From NCBI GenBank assembly GCA_001799565.1, contig MGTS01000021.1, positions 33,984-97,983 on the forward strand: a DNA stretch of 64,000 nucleotides, read 5' to 3'. Shown here piece by piece: positions 1 to 57,189 of the stretch (position 1 is the first letter of the stretch; each line of letters starts with the position of its first letter). The notes under the pieces are model-generated. The model saw only the letters and a list, made by a program, of their open reading frames with translations, did no database searches and was not told the DNA's origin. Position numbers and translations under genes: made by a program. Source of the stretch: Elusimicrobia bacterium GWA2_51_34. Its GTDB lineage: Bacteria > Elusimicrobiota > Elusimicrobia > Elusimicrobiales > UBA9959.

Positions 1-1440
1 CGACTGCACCAATTCAAAGAACTTGTTTTCGTCTAAATTCTTTTTTTCATTGTTCCATGAAGCGGACAAACAGTACCAGGCGTTACTTTTGCTTTTTAAA
101 AGCCAGGTCATGTTCAGCACTCCGGGCTCCGAGCCGCCTTTATAGCCCGCGTAAAAAAAATTGCCGGTCTCCATATCAAGCCCCGTATTCACCCCACCAC
201 CTGTCAGCCTTAGGCCGACAGGTGGTGGGCTCATAGCCAGGATATCCAGCGCCTGTTTGTCGTCTTTTTTATAGATATATTCCATCAGACGGCACAAATC
301 GGCGGGTGAGGCCATCCACTCTATTTTGTCTATGCCGAAAGAGCTTTTTTTAACGGCCTCCGCTTTAAGCGGCGCCGCCGCTAGTTCCGACAGGAATCCG
401 TATTTGTCCCCAGGAGGCAGATTCAGGTATTTGAGAACGGACTCGGTGTCGCTTTTCAGGCGGAACATTTCGGAAGTTTTAAGGAACGGACGCATCAGAG
501 CCGGATTTGAATGGCCAAATTTTTGCAGGTATCCCTCCAGAGTCTTTCTGCCTATAGTTTCTATCAGCAGGTCCGCGGCGGTATTGTCGCTTTCAGAGAT
601 CATCATAACGGAAAGCGTGTGCGCGGTAAGGGGAGAGGCATCTGGCCATCCCGCCAAACCGCCGGCGGGGCCGTCCGCCTTAGGCGCCCGCCACACATCA
701 CCGGCGGGCAACTTGTCCGCCAACGCCGTAGTGGCGGACGGACGGCCGCCCGGCAGGGATTTCTGCTCTTCCCTAAGATGCACTATTGTCTTCCACCGAA
801 CTCCTTTCTCAAGCAACGCCCCCAAAACATAAAGTTTAAAGGCCGAACCCACGGCAAAATAGCCGTTTTCATTAACACCCGCCAGTTCCCCCTCAGCTCC
901 GCCGGTCGGGGAAGGAACGCCGAAACGCCGGAGTATAAAGCCGGTTTTGCCTTCAAGGCGCACGAGTTTTTCCTTAAACTCCTGAAGCAAGAGGTTTTTT
1001 TTATATGCTGTCGTAAAAAAAACACCCGAAATCTTGCCGGTATCAGGATCAAGGGAGAGCGCCGCCGGCAGTTCAAAATTATTTTCCGTTTCAAAAATAA
1101 AGTGGGCCGAAAAAGCGGAGTCCGCGCGCTCAAGACGCACCGCCGTAACACGGCCATTGCTTTTATAGATACCGGAAAGGATGTCTGAAAGTTTTTCAAG
1201 CGAGATCCGGTGAAAAAAGTTTTTATCAAACAGCCCGGGGAGATTTTGAGGCTTTTCCGCTATCTGAGCGGAAAGCAGGCGGGCGGCGGACTCAAGAGCC
1301 GCCGCGCTTTCGTTTTTTTGGGCGAAACTGTTCAGGCAGAAAAACAGCAGGCCGGCGGCTGCAAGGACGCTGCGGATAAGGAACCGCGTGATTTTATCCG
1401 CGCGTTTTGCGTCCGCTCCTACTGTTTTAAAGATGGCCAT
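1..1440 (-). CDS. Class A beta-lactamase-fold serine hydrolase, 3' end beyond window
   Basis: Reading leftward from ATG at 1440 the frame stays open for 480 codons to the window edge, so the C-terminus is missing. A hydrophobic segment at about residues 20-40 (LIRSVLAAAGLLFFCLNSFA) looks like a signal peptide or anchor. The three landmarks of the penicillin-binding/beta-lactamase fold are present: SxxK as SAFK (199-202), SDN within ISESDNTAA (281-289) and KGG (434-436) replacing KTG. The SAFK-to-SDN distance is about 30 residues longer than usual. The excess is a Pro/Gly/Ala-rich stretch (about 231-260) encoded by an inverted repeat, and a second palindrome encodes about residues 405-416. I infer a secreted or periplasmic serine hydrolase; true beta-lactamase activity cannot be claimed. 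A GGAG about 11 nt upstream of the ATG is a plausible ribosome site. Strong on fold, weak on substrate. Confidence 0.85.
   Translation of the reverse strand, partial: MAIFKTVGADAKRADKITRFLIRSVLAAAGLLFFCLNSFAQKNESAAALESAARLLSAQIAEKPQNLPGLFDKNFFHRISLEKLSDILSGIYKSNGRVTAVRLERADSAFSAHFIFETENNFELPAALSLDPDTGKISGVFFTTAYKKNLLLQEFKEKLVRLEGKTGFILRRFGVPSPTGGAEGELAGVNENGYFAVGSAFKLYVLGALLEKGVRWKTIVHLREEQKSLPGGRPSATTALADKLPAGDVWRAPKADGPAGGLAGWPDASPLTAHTLSVMMISESDNTAADLLIETIGRKTLEGYLQKFGHSNPALMRPFLKTSEMFRLKSDTESVLKYLNLPPGDKYGFLSELAAAPLKAEAVKKSSFGIDKIEWMASPADLCRLMEYIYKKDDKQALDILAMSPPPVGLRLTGGGVNTGLDMETGNFFYAGYKGGSEPGVLNMTWLLKSKSNAWYCLSASWNNEKKNLDENKFFELVQS
193..229. repeat. 37-bp near-perfect palindrome inside a coding region
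   Basis: Arms of 18 bp (CCCACCACCTGTC... paired with ...GACAGGTGGTGGG) surround one central base, with a single mismatched pair. It lies in frame in the serine hydrolase gene and encodes roughly PPPVGLRLTGGG. The core GCCTTAGGC resembles the palindrome family found elsewhere in the window. Confidence 0.9.
661..754. repeat. In-frame inverted-repeat insertion in the serine hydrolase gene
   Basis: A G+C-rich block whose ends are imperfect inverted repeats (GCCGGCGGGGCCGTCCGCC at 661-679 against 733-754). Internal hairpins include CCGTCCGCCTTAGGCG and, read on the minus strand, GGACAAGTTGCCCGCC followed about ten bases later by GGCGGGCGCCT. The latter module recurs at about 54408-54432 inside another gene. 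The block encodes a low-complexity stretch of about 30 residues between the SAFK and SDN motifs without breaking the frame. Confidence 0.8.
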
Positions 1441-3884: not shown

Positions 3885-5456
3885 ATGGCTAAGAAAAAAG
3901 TTCTGCTTATTGTGCGCGACGGATGGGGCATGGCTGAGCCGGATAAATTTAACGCGGTGGACAACGCCAAAAAGCCGAACATGGACCGCTACCTGAAAGA
4001 ATATCCCAATTCCGTGCTTGAAGCCGCGGGCATTGCGGTAGGTTTACCCAAAGGATATCAGGGCTCGTCCGAAGTCGGACATCTTAACATGGGCGCGGGC
4101 CGTATAGTCATACAGGAACTTAAGAGAATAATGGACATGATAGAGGACGGAACATTCTTTAAAACCGCCGCCCTCAAAAACGCCATAGATAACGCGGTCA
4201 AAAACAACTCGGCTCTTCATTTAATGGGCCTTGTACAGGACGAAGGCGTGCACGCCCACCAGGATCATCTCTACGCCATAATGCGCCACGCCGCGAAGTC
4301 CGGAGTAAAACAAATCCGGGTGCACTTCTTCGCCGACGGCCGCGATACGCCGCCGCGCAGCGCGCTCAGCTTTCTGAAAATGCTTGAAGAAGTGATAAAA
4401 GAAGTCCCCGAAGCTGAAATAGGCACTATAATGGGCCGCTACTACGCCATGGACCGCGGTGAAAAATGGAAACTCACCGACCAGGCCTATAACGCCATAA
4501 CGAAAGCCGAAGGAGCCCGCGCCGCTACCGCCGAAGAAGCCATTAACCGCGCTTACGCGGACCTGAAAAATCCGAACGGCCAGCCTATTGTGGACGAGTA
4601 CCTCCCCCCCACCATAATAAGCGGCTACAAAGGCATGAAAGACGGCGACTCCGTGGTGCACTTTAACTTCCGTCAGGACCGCGCCATACAACTTACGAAG
4701 GCGTTCGTAGAAGACAATTACGCCGGCGCGCGCTGGAAAAAATTAAACATAACCTACTGCGGCCTCACCCGCTATTACGACTCTTTCAAGTTCAGCGCGC
4801 TGCCTCCCATGGATGAAGGCGGCGGCATGGACAATCTGCTCGGGCAGATAATCTCAAACGCAGGTCTTAAACAGCTGCGCCTCGCCGAAACCCAGAAATT
4901 CAAACACGTGACCTCCTTCTTCAACGGCAAACGCACCGAACCGTACAAAAACGAAGACCAGGTGGAAATAATGGGCGCCTGGGACCCGTCCAGCTTCGGC
5001 GAACATCCCGAAATGAACGCACCCGAAGCGGCCGAGCGCGCGCTTACCGAAATTGCCTCTGAAAGATACGACTTCATCCTGGTCAATTTCGCCAACGGCG
5101 ACATGGTGGGACACACCGGTATATATGAAGCCGCCGTAAAGGCCATTGAAGTGGTGGACGGCATGGTCGGCAGGCTTGTGGACGCGGCGCTTGAGCACGG
5201 CTACACCGTAATGGTGACTTCCGATCATGGTAACGCCGAGGAAATGTGGGACTATAAAATAAACATGCCTAAAACCGCCCATACTACCAACCCCGTGGAA
5301 TTTTTTTACATAGCCGGGGATATTTCCGCAGTAAAACTGCGACAGCACGGCATACTTTCTGATATTGCCCCCACCGTGCTTGAAACACTGGGTCTGCCAA
5401 AGCCGGGAGATATGACGTCAGAATCGCTTATTGTCTGCAATAAGCGATTGCCGTAA
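3885..5456 (+). CDS. gpmI: 2,3-bisphosphoglycerate-independent phosphoglycerate mutase
   Basis: 523 residues, the usual size. Interconverts 3- and 2-phosphoglycerate in glycolysis/gluconeogenesis with two divalent metals. Seen: N-terminal RDGWG metal site (11-15), SSEVGHLNMGAGR (61-73) with the phosphorylated serine probably Ser62 (commonly NSEVGH, here SSEVGH), FADGRDTPPRSA in the substrate domain, and C-terminal TSDHGNAEEM with a following AHT metal site. TATAAT at 3868-3873 sits only 11 nt before the ATG, with AGGA between them, so the mRNA leader must be very short. The stop codon lies inside the word repeat at 5449-5551, which ends the protein in RLP. Confidence 0.95.
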   Translation: MAKKKVLLIVRDGWGMAEPDKFNAVDNAKKPNMDRYLKEYPNSVLEAAGIAVGLPKGYQGSSEVGHLNMGAGRIVIQELKRIMDMIEDGTFFKTAALKNAIDNAVKNNSALHLMGLVQDEGVHAHQDHLYAIMRHAAKSGVKQIRVHFFADGRDTPPRSALSFLKMLEEVIKEVPEAEIGTIMGRYYAMDRGEKWKLTDQAYNAITKAEGARAATAEEAINRAYADLKNPNGQPIVDEYLPPTIISGYKGMKDGDSVVHFNFRQDRAIQLTKAFVEDNYAGARWKKLNITYCGLTRYYDSFKFSALPPMDEGGGMDNLLGQIISNAGLKQLRLAETQKFKHVTSFFNGKRTEPYKNEDQVEIMGAWDPSSFGEHPEMNAPEAAERALTEIASERYDFILVNFANGDMVGHTGIYEAAVKAIEVVDGMVGRLVDAALEHGYTVMVTSDHGNAEEMWDYKINMPKTAHTTNPVEFFYIAGDISAVKLRQHGILSDIAPTVLETLGLPKPGDMTSESLIVCNKRLP

Positions 5457-5551
5457 GCCGTAGGCCGTAGGCCATATGCCATAGGCCGTATGCTATAGGC
5501 ATTTTAAAGAACTCTTTGCAGCTTATGGCTTACGGCATACGGCCTATGGCA
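5449..5551. repeat. Word palindrome (GCCGTAGGCC type)
   Basis: Left arm: tandem variants of GCCGTAGGCC/GCCATATGCC. A spacer of about 40 bases follows. Right arm: the reverse-complement words (CTTATGGCTTACGGC, ATACGGCCTATGGC). It overlaps the gpmI stop and ends 13 nt before the yggU start. The same word is used at 10981, 41650 and 45740. Confidence 0.8.
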
Positions 5552-9820: not shown

Positions 9821-10993
9821 ATGATTAGGATGTTGAAAAATGTTTTTACGCAAAAAACGCACGACGGCACCACGGAACGCCTGCTGCAGCTGGCACTGGC
9901 CTACTTCGCCACCTACATATTGACCGGAATTGCTCCTAAATACTTTATGAATACCGCTCCCGGCTATCCCGCCATGAGCGATGTCCAGTATATGGTTTAC
10001 TCCACGCTCTTATCCAGTCTTTTCTGCGTAACGCTCGTCATAATCTGGAAATGGTATAAATTCCAGTCCCAGGGCAAAATCACGGTATTAGGCCTGAGTT
10101 TCCCTAAAGAGTTCCTTTATATCATTCCGTCCGGCGTCTGCACCGCGGTGGTCATTCCGACCACCACGCTGATGTACCTGCTGCCCATCTCGGTGATGGT
10201 TGCCATGATAATCATGCGGGCGAGTATCATCGTAATAAGCCGCCTTATTGATTCAATACAGATACGCCAGGGCATCCTGACTAAAACAGTCTACATGGAA
10301 GAAAATGTGGCCGTAGTCTTCGCGTTGGCCGCCGTGGGAATGAAGCTATGTTATGTCAAGCCGGGCGACTTTGACTTCGTCCATAATGCCGCAGCAGTGA
10401 CCATTCTAACCTCTTACATCATTGCCTATGGCATCCGCATCTACATTATGAACTATTTCAAAAACACGCGGACCAAGGGGGTGCCATACGATAACAAAGG
10501 CTTTTTCGCCGTGGAACAGTTATCCGCCAGTACCACGATGATACTCGCTGCACTTGCCGTGGTATATTTCATGACCCCGGACCTGGCCAATCCCAAAGAC
10601 TTCGTGGCCAACTTTCAGGACGCGTTCTCAAACGCCCATAAGGATTGGCTCAAAGCCGCCCTGGCAGGCATCCCTTACGGCATAGGCGCTTTTTTTTCGG
10701 TGTTCCTGTTCATGTTTAAGGGCCGCACCGCCACTTTCGCGGGGCTAGTTAACCGCCTAACCTCGCTTATCGCAGGCACCATAGCAACGCTCATTGTATT
10801 TCTGCTTATGGCGGCAAAACCGCCGGCCAGAGAAGACTGGCTCGGCCTGATACTGATCTTTATCGCCATATACTTCCTGGGCGTTTCCGAAAAGAAGCGC
10901 GCCTGCGAACTGGCAAGGGCTCATGAAATTGAGCTGGAAAAAGACACGGAAGCGGTCTGCGCCCCAGACGGAGAAGACCGCCATAAGCCATAG
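9821..10993 (+). CDS. Polytopic membrane protein of unknown function
   Basis: 390 residues from ATG 9821, chosen because GGAG lies 8 nt upstream; an earlier in-frame start at 9776 is inside repeat DNA. About ten hydrophobic segments span nearly the whole length, with charged loops KWYKFQSQGK and NYFKNTRTKG. It ends in an acidic/basic cytoplasmic tail after residue 360. The layout is reminiscent of ten-helix drug/metabolite transporters (two similar halves), but I see no diagnostic motif. It sits just upstream of ugd and uxs, so a role in nucleotide-sugar or glycan handling is possible, by position only. Confidence 0.6.
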   Translation: MIRMLKNVFTQKTHDGTTERLLQLALAYFATYILTGIAPKYFMNTAPGYPAMSDVQYMVYSTLLSSLFCVTLVIIWKWYKFQSQGKITVLGLSFPKEFLYIIPSGVCTAVVIPTTTLMYLLPISVMVAMIIMRASIIVISRLIDSIQIRQGILTKTVYMEENVAVVFALAAVGMKLCYVKPGDFDFVHNAAAVTILTSYIIAYGIRIYIMNYFKNTRTKGVPYDNKGFFAVEQLSASTTMILAALAVVYFMTPDLANPKDFVANFQDAFSNAHKDWLKAALAGIPYGIGAFFSVFLFMFKGRTATFAGLVNRLTSLIAGTIATLIVFLLMAAKPPAREDWLGLILIFIAIYFLGVSEKKRACELARAHEIELEKDTEAVCAPDGEDRHKP

Positions 10994-11027
10994 GCCGTAT
11001 CTCAACTTTACGACTTACGGCAATAAT
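10981..11027. repeat. Word palindrome (GCCATAGGCC type), short copy
   Basis: CCATAAGCCATAGGCCGTAT, then CTTTACGACTTACGGC as the short opposite arm. It overlaps the stop of the membrane protein gene and precedes ugd. Confidence 0.6.
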
Positions 11028-30772: not shown

Positions 30773-31038
30773 AGTGTAGTGTCTCGCAAATAACTTTATT
30801 TTTGACTGGGCGATTTTGAGTTCTGGCTAGGCGCGAGGAGTGCGTCCGCCTTAGGCGGATAAGTGACGAGCAACGACGCCAGAACTCAAAAGCGCCCATC
30901 CCCCTGGGGGAAGCTCATCTTTGGCCGGCTGCTTCGTTGCTCCTCATTCACAGACCCCCGGTATGCTCGTTCGTCACGCCTCGCATCCGGCTCAAATCTG
31001 AGCTTTCAAAAATAAAGCTATTTGCGAGACACTACACT
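30773..31038. mobile_element. 266-bp MITE-like element with 33-bp terminal inverted repeats
   Basis: Ends begin AGTGTAGTGTCTCGCAAATA on both strands and match over 33 bp with one difference (30773-30805 against 31006-31038). Nested inside: a 20-bp inverted repeat (GGGCGATTTTGAGTTCTGGC at 30808-30827 against 30878-30897, one difference) enclosing CGTCCGCCTTAGGCGGA. There is also a second imperfect pair, GAAGCTCATCTTTGGCCGG against CCGGCTCAAATCTGAGCTTTC. No transposase is encoded. No clear target duplication is visible. Confidence 0.75.
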
Positions 31039-44521: not shown

Positions 44522-44748
44522 GTAACTGCGCAGGTTGTCAGCTTCACGGTTCAGGGTTCACGGTTTCAGAATTATTTTTTCCACGATCTTTATGCTTTTT
44601 CAAGGCTAGGCCCCGCTCTTTTGGCCCAAGAACTACCAGCTTTCGGCCAAGCATAGCGCACACTTTAACCACTAGGACCAAAAAAGCGGGGCTAGGCCTA
44701 CCAGACGGCCAACCGTTGAACCGCTGAACCGTGAACCTGAGTAGTTAC
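44522..44748. repeat. Terminal-inverted-repeat element, copy 2, with a nested insertion
   Basis: Left end GTAACTGCGCAGGTT and right end (opposite strand) GTAACTACTCAGGTTCACGG. Interior shares ATTATTTTTTCCACGATCTT and CAACCGTTGAACCGCTGAAC with copy 1 at 1503-1632. Between these common parts sits about 100 extra bases (44603-44702) with their own inverted repeat. The right end supplies the TAA stop (44745-44747) of the membrane protein gene. Confidence 0.85.
44603..44702. repeat. Nested CCCCGCTCTTTTGG hairpin element
   Basis: Ends GGCTAGGCCCCGCTCTTTTG and CAAAAAAGCGGGGCTAGGCC are inverted repeats with one or two differences. It interrupts copy 2 of the element at 44522-44748. A related structure (CCCGCCCTTTTGG...CCAAAAGAGCGGG) lies in frame in the gene at 54269. 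Confidence 0.75.
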
Positions 44749-45728
44749 GTTTCTTTACCTGAAAATTCACCCCAAACCTTGCCGAGCGAGTGGCCCATCT
44801 GATAAACGAAAAACACTCCAAGCAGGGTGACAAGGATGTATCCCAGCATATGCGTATACAACGCGTAGGCTAAAGCTGTTTCTCCGCCTATGCCGTATCC
44901 TTCAAGCACCTTGGCGAGGGCAAACTCGAAGTTGCCGAAATAACCCGGCAGCCCCGGCATGGACGCGGCCGCGGCGCCTGTAAACACCAGCGTCACGGCC
45001 TTGAAGATATCAATAACGCCATCAAGGCCGAAAGCCAGAGCCATCAGATAATAATTAAAAGCGTCCAGGAACCACTGCAGGAAGGCAAAAACAAAAATAA
45101 GCGCGCCGCTTTTCAAAGAATGAAACCCTTTTACGCCCATGGCCACGCGTTCTAAAAAACGCCTTGCTACGGGAAAACGCGCGAAAAAACCCGAAAACCA
45201 CTTGTGCGCGATAAGCTCGTCGGCGAACACCAGCGCCGCCATGGCGAACACCAGCCCCGCGAACAGGGCCCACAGCCATTGGCCGTAATTCAGGAAACCG
45301 CCGGTAATGCCGCCGAAGTAGGCCGCGGCCGCGAATATAAAAAACAGCACGATAATGTCCAACGTTCGTTCCACCAGAATAGTGGCGAACACCGTGAGCG
45401 CTGGAATGCCGAAAATTTTAGCGCCTAAGGTGCCCCTGGCTATTTCTCCCAGGCGCAAAGGCAGGATATTGCTCAGCGCCAGCCCCGCCGCTTCAAGCCG
45501 GAAAGCGTCCCAGAGGCGCACAGGCTTTGAGGGGTTGAGCAACAGCCGCCAGCGCGCCGCACGAAAAAACAATTCAAGAAAAATGGTGAAAACAAACGGA
45601 ATTATGAACAAGGCATTGGCCTTTGAATAAACGGCCAGCAAACCCGTGAAATTCACGCTTCTGAATGCGAAAAAAAGCAGCGCGGCCCCGATAAAAAAGC
45701 CGGCGATGATGGAGAGTCTGGTTTTCAT
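44745..45728 (-). CDS. Lysylphosphatidylglycerol synthase TM-region (AglD/UPF0104-like) membrane protein
   Basis: 327 residues, about eight helices. RAARWRLLLNP (57-67), LSNILPLRLGEIARG (89-103) and ERTLDIIVLFF (about 124-134) are hallmark motifs of the family. MPGLPGYFGNFEFALAKVL is the equivalent of the PGGIG(T)xE region. Members include AglD (dolichol-glycan assembly) and MprF flippase domains; a lipid-linked glycan or lipid transport role is likely. The TAA stop lies within the terminal inverted repeat of copy 2, so the element fixes its C-terminus (FSGKET). Confidence 0.85.
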   Translation of the reverse strand: MKTRLSIIAGFFIGAALLFFAFRSVNFTGLLAVYSKANALFIIPFVFTIFLELFFRAARWRLLLNPSKPVRLWDAFRLEAAGLALSNILPLRLGEIARGTLGAKIFGIPALTVFATILVERTLDIIVLFFIFAAAAYFGGITGGFLNYGQWLWALFAGLVFAMAALVFADELIAHKWFSGFFARFPVARRFLERVAMGVKGFHSLKSGALIFVFAFLQWFLDAFNYYLMALAFGLDGVIDIFKAVTLVFTGAAAASMPGLPGYFGNFEFALAKVLEGYGIGGETALAYALYTHMLGYILVTLLGVFFVYQMGHSLGKVWGEFSGKET

Positions 45729-45739
45729 GAGTAATATCC

Positions 45740-45830
45740 ATATGCTTTAGGCCATATGCCAGAGGCTAAAAGGAGTTCCTTACAGCCTACGGCCTATGGC
45801 TTATGGCTTATGGCTTATGGCAATTTTACG
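45740..45830. repeat. Word palindrome (GCCATATGCC / GCCTATGGC type)
   Basis: Left: CCATATGCTTTAGGCCATAT then GCCAGAGGC. Right: CAGCCTACGGCCTATGGC then CTTATGGC three times. The arms are about 20 bp apart. The right arm ends at the stop of the M3 peptidase gene. Confidence 0.8.
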
Positions 45831-53438: not shown

Positions 53439-54157
53439 AATCGTTCCAGCTCCCTCAACCCAAGCAGGTCAAAATAATCATAGAAACCCGGCTTCTGCGC
53501 GTAAAGCCAAAGAGCCGCGCGCAGCGCCCCCTCGGCAAACACCTCGCGGGAATGCGCCCTGTGGATAAGCTCAACGCGCTCATACGGACCGGCGTAAAGC
53601 ACGGTATGCTCCCCCACTATGTCGCCCGCGCGCACGCTTGAAACAGGTGTTTTAGAGCCGCAGGCTTTTTCCATGCGCTCGGAATATTTAAGCGCGGTAC
53701 CGCTTGGAGCGTCTTTTTTGGCCGCATGGTGGGTTTCAATAATACGACGGTCAAACCCGGGCAGTTTTTTAGCGATAAGCGCTGCCACGGCGAAAGTAAG
53801 ATTGACGGCGGGGCTCATATTGGGAGAGAAAAAAACGGCCGTACTTTTGGAGACGGCTTTCAGACCGGTTATTTGCGCGGCGCTAAAACCGGTAACTCCT
53901 ATCACCACGGGTTTACGCGCTTGCGCGCAGGCCCCGGCGAACTCAAGCGAAGCCGCCGGGGTGGAAAAATCCACGGCCAAGTCCGCCGTCCGCATTAAAG
54001 CCGGAAATTCCGAAGGCGGTTTAAAGTCCGTACCGGCTTCAGCGTCCACTCCGGCGAAAAAAGAGAGGTCTTTTGAAAGCGCGAGCCGGGCGCGCACCGA
54101 AGCGCCCATGCGGCCGGCGGCGCCTAGCACCACAACTTTTAAGGGCCCTGTGTTCAT
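53435..54157 (-). CDS. dapB: 4-hydroxy-tetrahydrodipicolinate reductase
   Basis: 240 residues. Rossmann GAAGRMG (12-18), VDFSTPAASLEFAGACAQ, and the catalytic/substrate loop ETHHAAKKDAPSGTA with the paired histidines and lysine. Slightly short (usual 250-270). Reduces the DapA product toward diaminopimelate and lysine. Overlaps dapL by 4 nt. A promoter with TATAAT ends 6 nt before the ATG and no ribosome site fits between, so the mRNA may be leaderless. Confidence 0.95.
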   Translation of the reverse strand: MNTGPLKVVVLGAAGRMGASVRARLALSKDLSFFAGVDAEAGTDFKPPSEFPALMRTADLAVDFSTPAASLEFAGACAQARKPVVIGVTGFSAAQITGLKAVSKSTAVFFSPNMSPAVNLTFAVAALIAKKLPGFDRRIIETHHAAKKDAPSGTALKYSERMEKACGSKTPVSSVRAGDIVGEHTVLYAGPYERVELIHRAHSREVFAEGALRAALWLYAQKPGFYDYFDLLGLRELERL

Positions 54158-54163
54158 CGTTTA

Positions 54164-54192
54164 ATTATATTCATTTGAAACCCCCCTGACAA
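54164..54192 (-). promoter_or_regulatory. Promoter of dapB-dapL, probably leaderless
   Basis: On the minus strand TTGTCA (54187-54192), a 17-nt spacer, and TATAAT (54164-54169). The dapB ATG begins 6 nt further on, about where transcription should start. Confidence 0.65.
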
Positions 54193-54268
54193 ACAGTATA
54201 CGGGTATCGGTCAGCCGGCCAACCGCGCAAAAATACTATAATAGGCGCTGCTGAAAAATATTAAAATC

Positions 54269-55375
54269 ATGCGGCTTAAAACTACCAGGTCAGTCCGTCC
54301 GCCTAAGGCGGACAAGTCCCGCCCTTTTGGTCCTGGACCAGAGTCTTCTTCCAGAGCTTTGGATGTATTGTATTCAGCCGGGCCGCCAAAAGAGCGGGAC
54401 AAGTTGCCCGCCAGCCGCAGCGGCGGGCGCCTGCTTTTACTGCTTCCCGCGCTGATGTTCGGATGCGCGGCCGCGCTTTCAGCCCGAAGCTTCTCACGCG
54501 GCGTCAATGAACCCGAACTTTTGAATTACATGCGCGGCCAAAACGCCGACTCATCCTGCGACATCTGCTTGAACTCGGCAAAAAAATATTACGACGAAAA
54601 ACGCAAAGACGAACTGAATAAGAAAACCGCCGGCATGTCGCTTATCCCGGGCGGCAGTTATTACATCGGTTCTCCCGAAGGCGTCGGGGACCCCGATGAA
54701 CACCCTGGCGGGGGAATATATATTAGCGCTTTCTATATAGACAAAACCGAAGTGACCCTTGAGAACTATGCGCAGTTCACGCGCGTAACCACCGGCAACT
54801 TCCCGGAATGGCAAAAATCCGGCGGGAAGTATAACATAGACACCGGTTCCGATAAATATTATAAAAGGCTGGACGTCCTTATAAAAACCTGCGCCAACTG
54901 CCCCGTGTTCGGCGTTACCTGGGAAGACGCCAACGCTTATTGCCGCTGGAAAGATAAACACCTGCCCACCGAAGCGCAATGGGAAGCGGCGGCGCGGGCG
55001 GGTTCAAGAGAAAAATATTTTTTTGGCGACACGCAGGATCAGGCCGGAGAATATTCCTGGAATGAAAACAATTCCGGAGAGGTCCCGCACCCTGTCGGCC
55101 AGAAGAAACCGAATAAATACGGCCTTTACGACACCGGCGGCAATGTGTGGGAATGGGTATCCGACTTGTATGACAAACGCTATTATTCCGTCCGCCCGTC
55201 TAAAAACCCGTCCGGTCCGCAAGCCGGCAGTGAGCACGTTATACGCGGCGGCTCGTGGGCGTTTGATGCGGATTCAACGCGCCCGGCCAACCGCGCGAGC
55301 TACAAAAAAGCCAACGACGATATAGGATTTCGCTGCGCCGTTTTGGAAAGAGAATTGTCCCGCGAGCCTGAATAA
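54269..55375 (+). CDS. FGE/SUMF1-like lipoprotein-type protein with a repeat in its leader
   Basis: 368 residues. The N-terminus MRLKTT is followed by about 48 low-complexity residues encoded by an inverted-repeat element, then RLLLLLPALMFGCAA, which looks like the rest of a signal peptide with an atypical lipobox cysteine. From about residue 120 runs a formylglycine-generating-enzyme-type domain: MSLIPGGSYYIGSPEG, FYIDKTEVTLENYAQF, VTWEDANAYCRWKDKHLPTE, GLYDTGGNVWEWVSD, VIRGGSWAFD and FRCAV. The paired copper-binding cysteines of true FGE are not seen at GNVWEWVSD, so catalytic FGE activity is unlikely. Probably an envelope protein. Confidence 0.8.
   Translation: MRLKTTRSVRPPKADKSRPFGPGPESSSRALDVLYSAGPPKERDKLPASRSGGRLLLLLPALMFGCAAALSARSFSRGVNEPELLNYMRGQNADSSCDICLNSAKKYYDEKRKDELNKKTAGMSLIPGGSYYIGSPEGVGDPDEHPGGGIYISAFYIDKTEVTLENYAQFTRVTTGNFPEWQKSGGKYNIDTGSDKYYKRLDVLIKTCANCPVFGVTWEDANAYCRWKDKHLPTEAQWEAAARAGSREKYFFGDTQDQAGEYSWNENNSGEVPHPVGQKKPNKYGLYDTGGNVWEWVSDLYDKRYYSVRPSKNPSGPQAGSEHVIRGGSWAFDADSTRPANRASYKKANDDIGFRCAVLERELSREPE
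54297..54432. repeat. Inverted-repeat element inserted in a signal-peptide coding region
   Basis: Begins with GTCCGCCTAAGGCGGAC (54297-54313), then CCCGCCCTTTTGG...CCAAAAGAGCGGG arms, then GGACAAGTTGCCCGCC with GGCGGGCGCCT. The last module also occurs in the serine hydrolase gene (661-754), and the CTTTTGG arms resemble the nested element at 44603-44702. Length keeps the reading frame. Confidence 0.8.
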
Positions 55376-55383
55376 ATCTATTG

Positions 55384-57189
55384 TCATTTCTCAAACGTCA
55401 ACGCCATCATGCAGCCCTCGCAGTCAAAATCCAGCCGGAACTTATGCCCCTCTTCATCTTCAAGATACAGCGGTTCTACGCTCTGGCCTTTCCTGCACAG
55501 GCCGAGGCGGCGCCTGACGCAGAATTTCATGGTCATAACGCGCTTACCCCTCATGTCTAGCCCCTCTTCGGCCGCTCCGGCTATTTCGGTTACGCCGTGG
55601 CGCCTGTAAAAAGCCGCGGCTTTTGAATTTAAAACATTGCCCGTAAAGTCCAGTTCTTTTACGGGATAGGGATAGTCATTGGGTTTTATTTTTGCTTCTT
55701 CGCGCGGAACCTTTAAGGTATGTTTTGCGAGTACGCCAAGGGTATCGCGTCTTAAATCGTTCAGCGCCGATACGGGGATAAAAAAGGATTTTGAGAGCCT
55801 GACTTCAAGCGCCTGAAGGTAATAATCGCTCTCTCCCAGTTTTGAAAGCTGTTTGTTTATGGTTTCCAGGGCCTGCTCCGGCTTTTTAGCCGAAGCTTTT
55901 TTATTTTTAATTTCCGTAACGGCCGAAAACCCCGTTTCGTCAACGGCTTTAAGCCTGAACCCGTCGTCGGTATCGGAAAATTCCAGCGTGACGCCCAGCT
56001 TTCTTTGCGGCCCCTCGCGCCCCACAAGGCGTATGAATTCCCTGTCAAAATTGCGGTAAATCGCGGTGCCGTTTTCTATGCCTTTTAAATTTTCCGCTTT
56101 CACCCGCGCGTCTATCACCCCGTTTATAAGCGAACCGGCCAGCACGCCGTTTTTGTCAAAAAAAGAAATGCCGTCGCCGGGGTTCAGTTTTTGAGCGCCC
56201 TGTAATTTAAAAGAGCCGTTTTTCACCTCGTAAACACGGCCAAGCGGCTCCCCCATGAACTTCGGGGTGTCGGGAGCGGCGATATCTGCCGGATTGCCGT
56301 TGACAAAATATTCGCTGTACCCGCGGTTGAAGGTTTTATCGGGGTTCGGGGCGAACGCGATAAAACTTTTTCCATACGAACTTTTTCCGATCTTTTTCTG
56401 CTCCAGCACTTTATCCAAAGCGGCGCGGTAATGCGAAACTATGTTGCGGACATAGGCGCCGTCTTTCAGGCGGCCCTCTATTTTAAGCGAGGTAACACCG
56501 GCGTCAATAAGGCCGCCCAGGCGGCGCGTCAGGTTAAGGTCCTTAAGCGAGAGAAGGTGCTTGTTTTTCTCTATTATATTGCCGGTCCCGTCCCGTAAAT
56601 TATAAAGCTTGCGGCATGGCTGGGCGCAGGCGCCCCTGTTTCCGCTGCGGCCGCCGAGGGCGTAGCTCGCGTAGCACTGCCCGCTGTAAGACACGCATAA
56701 AGCTCCATGAATAAAAAACTCAAGCTCCACCGAGGTTTTGGCCCGTATTTTTTTAATTTCCTCAATAGAAAGCTCGCGCCCCAGTGTCACCCGCTTAAAT
56801 CCGGCTTTCTCAAGGAATAAAACTTTTTCGGGAGTAGTGTTATGGGTCTGCGTGCTGGCGATCAGCGGCACCGGCGGCAGGGGAACTTCAAGCAGGCCCA
56901 TGTCCTGCACTATAACGGCGTCAACTCCTGCCTCCCAAAGGCGCGCTATAAGCCTTTGCGCCCGTATAAGCTCATGATCGGACAAAATGGTATTTACAGC
57001 GGCGTAAACCCTGGCGCCGTAACGGCGGGCGTGAACACAAAGCTTTCCGATATCGGCGGCCGTATTGGCGGCGCCCGCGCGCGCGCCGAATTCTTCTGCG
57101 CCGATATAAACGGCGTCGGCGCCGCAGTTTATGGCGTCCAGTCCCACAGCCAAATCCCGCGCGGGGGCAAGCAGTTCAATAGTTTTCAC
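55384..57189 (-). CDS. Peptidase U32-family protein (RlhA/TrhP-like)
   Basis: 601 residues. Starts ELLAPARDLAVGLDAINCGA and DAVYIGAEEFGARAGAAN, the U32 signature; TQTHNTTPEKVLFL, LGRELSIEEIKKI and then GALCVSYSGQCYASYALGGR and RGACAQPCRKLY, carrying the four conserved cysteines that bind an iron-sulfur cluster in related enzymes. A C-terminal DUF3656-like region (about 350-600) ends near CEGCMMALTF. Known relatives (RlhA, TrhP) hydroxylate 23S rRNA or tRNA; the fused C-terminal domain suggests RlhA-like. The peptidase label is historical. No neighbour adds information. Confidence 0.85.
   Translation of the reverse strand: MKTIELLAPARDLAVGLDAINCGADAVYIGAEEFGARAGAANTAADIGKLCVHARRYGARVYAAVNTILSDHELIRAQRLIARLWEAGVDAVIVQDMGLLEVPLPPVPLIASTQTHNTTPEKVLFLEKAGFKRVTLGRELSIEEIKKIRAKTSVELEFFIHGALCVSYSGQCYASYALGGRSGNRGACAQPCRKLYNLRDGTGNIIEKNKHLLSLKDLNLTRRLGGLIDAGVTSLKIEGRLKDGAYVRNIVSHYRAALDKVLEQKKIGKSSYGKSFIAFAPNPDKTFNRGYSEYFVNGNPADIAAPDTPKFMGEPLGRVYEVKNGSFKLQGAQKLNPGDGISFFDKNGVLAGSLINGVIDARVKAENLKGIENGTAIYRNFDREFIRLVGREGPQRKLGVTLEFSDTDDGFRLKAVDETGFSAVTEIKNKKASAKKPEQALETINKQLSKLGESDYYLQALEVRLSKSFFIPVSALNDLRRDTLGVLAKHTLKVPREEAKIKPNDYPYPVKELDFTGNVLNSKAAAFYRRHGVTEIAGAAEEGLDMRGKRVMTMKFCVRRRLGLCRKGQSVEPLYLEDEEGHKFRLDFDCEGCMMALTFEK

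Follow-up and report, generated by a model that had tools for sequence, protein, structure and literature searches.

Why does the FGE-sulfatase-domain protein encoded at 54269-55375 (+ strand, 368 aa) of the 64,000-nt stretch of DNA analyzed here (the window) reach the hydrophobic core of its leader only after 48 residues that are read from palindromic DNA? The ORF contains a Pfam PF03781 match over residues 121-357 (E 4.7e-58), and its translation runs MRLKTT-R...GGR-LLLLLPALMFGC, with the repeat in between. The whole in-frame insert comprises 144 nt, or exactly 48 codons, at 54289-54432 (+ strand; edges accurate to within a few bases), and its in silico removal joins MRLKTTR in frame to LLLLPALMFGC, giving MRLKTTRLLLLPALMFGC. 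Folded as RNA, the insert reaches -75.7 kcal/mol (z -5.4), which none of 200 dinucleotide shuffles equaled, and an Rfam scan of window positions 53500-55500 returned no match. The initial annotation had read this segment as a composite inverted repeat of about 48 residues following MRLKTT and inserted in the region coding for the signal peptide. The insertion is borne out by insert-free leaders of orthologs, by a target-site duplication (TSD) and by copies throughout the genome, and the repeat itself turned out to be richer in structure than described, with TSD, hairpin and module. Farther along the protein, at 55240-55320, RGGSWAFDADSTRPANRASY occupies the position of the cysteine pair of catalytic FGEs, so the protein is probably not a formylglycine-generating enzyme.

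The insert is built in two layers: a 57-nt module of twin palindromes encloses an 81-nt hairpin. The left palindrome of this older module, GTCCGCCTAAGGCGGAC (54297-54313), occurs dozens of times in the genome. It is followed by ACAAGT (54312-54317, +), the hairpin with termini CCCGCCCTTTTGG and CCAAAAGAGCGGG (54318-54398, translated as SRPFGPGPESSSRALDVLYSAGPPKERD), a second ACAAGT (54399-54404, +) and the right palindrome of the module, TGCCCGCC...GGCGGGCGCC (54405-54432). The two ACAAGT copies thus form a 6-bp direct repeat that lies outside the hairpin palindrome. When the hairpin and one ACAAGT are taken out, the flanks join to GGCGGACAAGTTGCCCGCC, a motif of the older module with about ten further occurrences, one of them at 671-747. 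There, on the - strand, an uninterrupted cousin of the module lies in frame in a serine hydrolase gene and reads GRPSATTALADKLPAGDVWRAP. The sharing of a right-hand module with this gene had already been pointed out, and GGACAAGTTGCCCGCC indeed occurs exactly twice in the window, in the FGE leader insert and at 703-718 (-). The parts add up as 57 + 87 = 144 nt, each divisible by three. The window holds a second hairpin copy of 79 nt at 44612-44690, outside any long ORF and flanked on both sides by the 7-bp duplicate GCTAGGC (44605-44697 with flanks). This copy is adjoined by an intergenic repeat, CAACCGTTGAACCGCTGAACCGT with CTACTCAGGTT flanks, which is common to 1503-1630 and 44529-44753. The serine hydrolase gene also holds a different palindrome at 198-232, CCACCACCTGTCAGCC...GGCCGACAGGTGGTGG, and reciprocal nesting was observed at L156:2011-2133, where a TCCGCCTTAGGCGGA palindrome lies within the loop of a 123-nt hairpin.

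The hairpin belongs to a family. In the stretches of interest of this genome (G000, a draft of 43 contigs), to which our counts refer, we found 50 distinct hairpins, of which 24 are 48 nt and 19 are 79-82 nt long; a few have 38-42 or 66 nt, and there is also a related 33-nt hairpin. Their terminal inverted repeats have arms of 14-15 bp and end in YCCCGCCC...GGGCGGGR. Some are identical at separate loci, which points to recent movement. An exact TSD of the form RCNNGY, at times one base longer (7 bp), flanks approximately 21 of the 50. When the rule was varied slightly, a TSD was scored for 18 of 47 versus 3.3 expected with shuffled flanks, and an independent set from the congener G002 gave 23 of 42 versus 4.0 expected. 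More than half of the G000 hairpins have no exact TSD, which counts against the transposition reading. Covariance models detected the hairpins in large and similar numbers only in G000 and G002; G001 and other genera of the same taxonomic family gave few copies, and f2, the second family of the order, gave none. G001 encodes a 1179-aa protein identical to one of Elusimicrobia bacterium UBA9634, which places the window in the same genus, within the phylum Elusimicrobiota. In the hairpin loci examined, we found no long parent element, sought as two arms that enclose a gene at a distance of 110-3500 bp, and neither these loci nor the surroundings of the Y1 genes examined revealed a mobilizing transposase. 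Hairpins with the same CCCGCCCTTTTG arms were seen in Omnitrophota, Patescibacteria and others (L163-L241), nearly all outside long ORFs; those of Omnitrophota often lie within a longer palindrome, TAAGTT...GCGAATTWAC. A search of the open-licence literature found no description of palindromic repeats in Elusimicrobia, and the family appears to be undescribed so far.

Numerous copies lie inside genes: about 30 in G000 and 25 of 42 in G002, where gene status means a stop-free frame without recourse to a gene finder. They are read in all three frames, as (S/P)RPFG...PK(G/E)R, PALL...QKGG and APLFW...AKRAG. The host genes encode, among others, HypF, GlgE, Mfd, MacB, a GH94 enzyme, a periplasmic binding protein, glycyl-tRNA synthetase beta (glyS), a pyridine nucleotide oxidoreductase and a DEAD helicase; in RdgB, the insert is the other module. 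Alignments to solved homologs show gaps at the hairpin in HypF, GlgE and GH94 and at the module in RdgB. GlgE and RdgB of congeners have no insert, nor do Mfd proteins of other genera carry the hairpin, and HypF is free of it in G001, whereas G002 HypF carries a copy of 81 nt at that very site. These element-free orthologs prove clean insertions in GlgE, HypF and Mfd and, for the module, in RdgB. In a protein of unknown kind (L128), for which a PDB comparison gave no match, the element is retained by each of the three species that make up the genus here and is absent in G010.

The orthologs of the FGE-like gene likewise have short, insert-free leaders. The comparison of orthologous leaders that the initial annotation had called for shows that the insert is absent in L037 and L039 from other genera, in L038 from G002 of the same genus (MKKQNILPMRIFFFFSALLPVCAVP) and in L040, whose leader MKTTFTLLSLWLLLTGAADCFAQ (start MKTTFTLLSLWLLL, MKTTFTLL...) aligns from the ATG. 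A second interrupted signal peptide is encoded at L122:222-2240 (-), where an 81-nt copy (G000:C21:145562-145646) separates the n-region from the hydrophobic core: MNWKTLKTTYL is followed by the element and then by LAALAAGL (LAALAAGLSVYGLCAQ). Its G002 counterpart, MRRKTLKITRFLALAALAAG, has the same start and near-identical upstream DNA and carries no element. At least two leaders have therefore tolerated an insert between their basic n-region and hydrophobic core. An 81-nt copy was also seen right behind a signal peptide at L123:2060-2140 (MKLKFLFPVILFCGAALFAQGAR|PALL...QKGG).

Taken together, we consider it likely that a selfish palindrome, MITE-like and RPE-like, was inserted stepwise into the leader and is translated through. 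A 57-nt palindromic module would have entered the leader of the FGE-like gene, after which a MITE-like 81-nt hairpin would have transposed into ACAAGT at the module center and duplicated 6 bp; the order of the two steps follows from the nesting. The ORF stayed open because both steps, of 57 and 87 bases, are multiples of three. The outcome would be a polar stretch of 48 residues between the basic start of the signal peptide and its hydrophobic core. Movement may have been driven by a transposase acting on CCCGCCCTTTTG termini, translation would run from ATG 54269 through the insert, and the DNA would persist near-neutrally as a selfish element whose encoded peptide is only tolerated. The last point is consistent with copies common to G000 and its congeners, in which pN is 0.19 and pS 0.25, versus 0.10 and 0.46 in neighboring codons. 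With a pN/pS of about 0.76 in the shared elements against 0.22 in the flanks, the encoded peptide is therefore nearly free of constraint, whereas conservation persists in the DNA arms. Selection for the hairpin-encoded peptide was thus not supported. Selection against stop codons across frames was rejected as well, since 48-nt copies have 4.1-4.2 of 6 frames open and loop-shuffled versions 4.0-4.1; only the 81-nt gene copies were somewhat more open than their shuffled versions (4.1 versus 3.3 of 6), which is explained by survivorship. A more tentative proposal is that the unit lengths (33, 39, 42, 48, 66 and 81 nt) together with a 6-bp TSD make the hairpins frame-preserving by construction and coding sequence their normal niche. 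If so, frame-preserving hairpins would use signal peptides and single-copy enzymes, and the peptide inserts would last and be inherited across species.

Whether the insert ends up in the protein at all depends on how its RNA is read. The hairpin is very stable and bounded exactly by direct repeats, as might be expected if it were bypassed like mitochondrial byps or excised from the RNA before the protein is made. Such skipping would create no need to keep frame, yet the length is divisible by three in 51 of the 56 copies within ORFs and in 20 of the 31 others (Fisher p 0.0036; copy lists of G000 and G002 compiled from the TSD analyses, gene status again meaning stop-free frames), and the frame stays open across the gene copies. 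This speaks for translation of the gene copies and against their being skipped, and it sets the family apart from byps, which insert regardless of reading frame; we regard skipping as very unlikely. At an N-terminus, frame conservation is weaker evidence for translation than within a gene, and the initial annotation had raised a start after the repeat. In that case, translation would begin inside the element, at the in-frame TTG 54404-54406 (+; or at 54359/54368), whose first base belongs to the right ACAAGT, and most of the insert would be 5′ untranslated. The resulting leader, MPASRSGGRLLLLLPALMFGC, would be normal, with arginines preceding the core, and it satisfies a PS00013-type lipoprotein rule. 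The empty-site leader passes this rule too, whereas the full-length leader, with its cysteine at residue 66, fails. A REP survey has also reported that many REPs located at annotated N-termini could go untranslated owing to downstream starts (PMC3733652). The TTG, however, is preceded by a G+C-rich stem, unlike starts in this genome, while ATG 54269 has an A/T-rich lead-in as do the genome's other starts; moreover, L040 aligns from the ATG, the frame was kept through both sub-insertions, and in the sister case L122 a conserved ATG precedes the element. For these reasons, we rate a start within the repeat as less likely and consider ATG 54269, with translation through the insert, the more probable start on this comparative evidence. 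The proposal that removal of the repeat leaves an ordinary lipoprotein leader held only in part, because the leaders of orthologs mostly resemble plain Sec leaders; the closest, L037 and L039, have no lipoprotein cysteine and look signal-peptidase-I-like.

The stepwise insertion of a MITE-like element also has to be weighed against other origins of the repeat. The genome contains six Y1 transposase genes, so that the copies might be REPs moved by a RAYT (Y1, HUH) transposase and landed within genes. HUH transposases, however, are not expected to make direct target-site duplications, and direct TSDs are present here. In addition, the hairpin arms lack both the GTAG and the CGTC tag, and no arms were found within about 1.5 kb of any of the six Y1 genes. 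RAYT as the mobilizer is weakened by this lack of flanking repeats, and we think it unlikely, even though intragenic REPs of known families exist in Opitutus, Thauera and Rickettsia (PMC3733652). Repeats misassemble easily, and G000 is a metagenome-assembled draft in 43 contigs; an assembly or binning artefact is nevertheless highly improbable, given that about 50 loci have unique flanks, that G002 and G001 hold independent copies and that insertions are shared vertically.

Close parallels to a translated MITE-like insertion are found in Rickettsia, whose RPEs of 105-146 bp lie in frame in 19 ORFs, including a guanylate kinase that is still active with its insert (PMC2229807). The present family resembles RPEs, with which we compared it by description, in being palindromic, in having many copies between and inside genes and in being tolerated in frame in housekeeping proteins (PMC2229807, PMC10969869), and in-frame insertion into many unrelated ORFs, an RPE criterion, was found here too. 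It differs in its 6-bp TSDs, its use of all three frames and both orientations, its phylum and its length: the hairpin core has 33-82 nt, and only the nested composite in the FGE leader reaches 144 nt. Intragenic REPs of the GTAG/CGTC families are known from repair genes, helicases and tRNA synthetases of Opitutus terrae and Thauera, and they too are short hairpins inside ORFs, including N-terminal insertions (PMC3733652); our hairpins are unlike them in having a TSD, no GTAG/CGTC tag and no RAYT gene beside a copy. Terminal inverted repeats, a TSD and the lack of transposase coding capacity are shared with MITEs such as NEMIS, RUP, ERIC and Coxiella QMITE1, but the hairpins are much shorter (mostly 48 or 81 nt) and unusually often in frame within genes. 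A 2024 review considered it conceivable that MITEs insert in frame in other prokaryotes as well (PMC10969869), and the Elusimicrobiota hairpin family is an example of it outside Rickettsia. Palindromes that code for protein are known chiefly from Rickettsia and a small number of REP-rich species; in the present family, TSDs, empty sites in congeners and enzyme insertions shared between species make the survival of selfish DNA inside proteins testable. The family is also a caution for gene callers, since an extended N-terminus in genomes of this kind may consist of repeat DNA.

Other repeats were noticed in the window. At 30773-31038 lies an element of about 266 bp with 48-nt terminal inverted repeats (83%), which is probably another MITE, and a 7-bp theme, GCCATAGGCCGTAT, is repeated at 5444-5551, 10980-11000 and 45737-45821.
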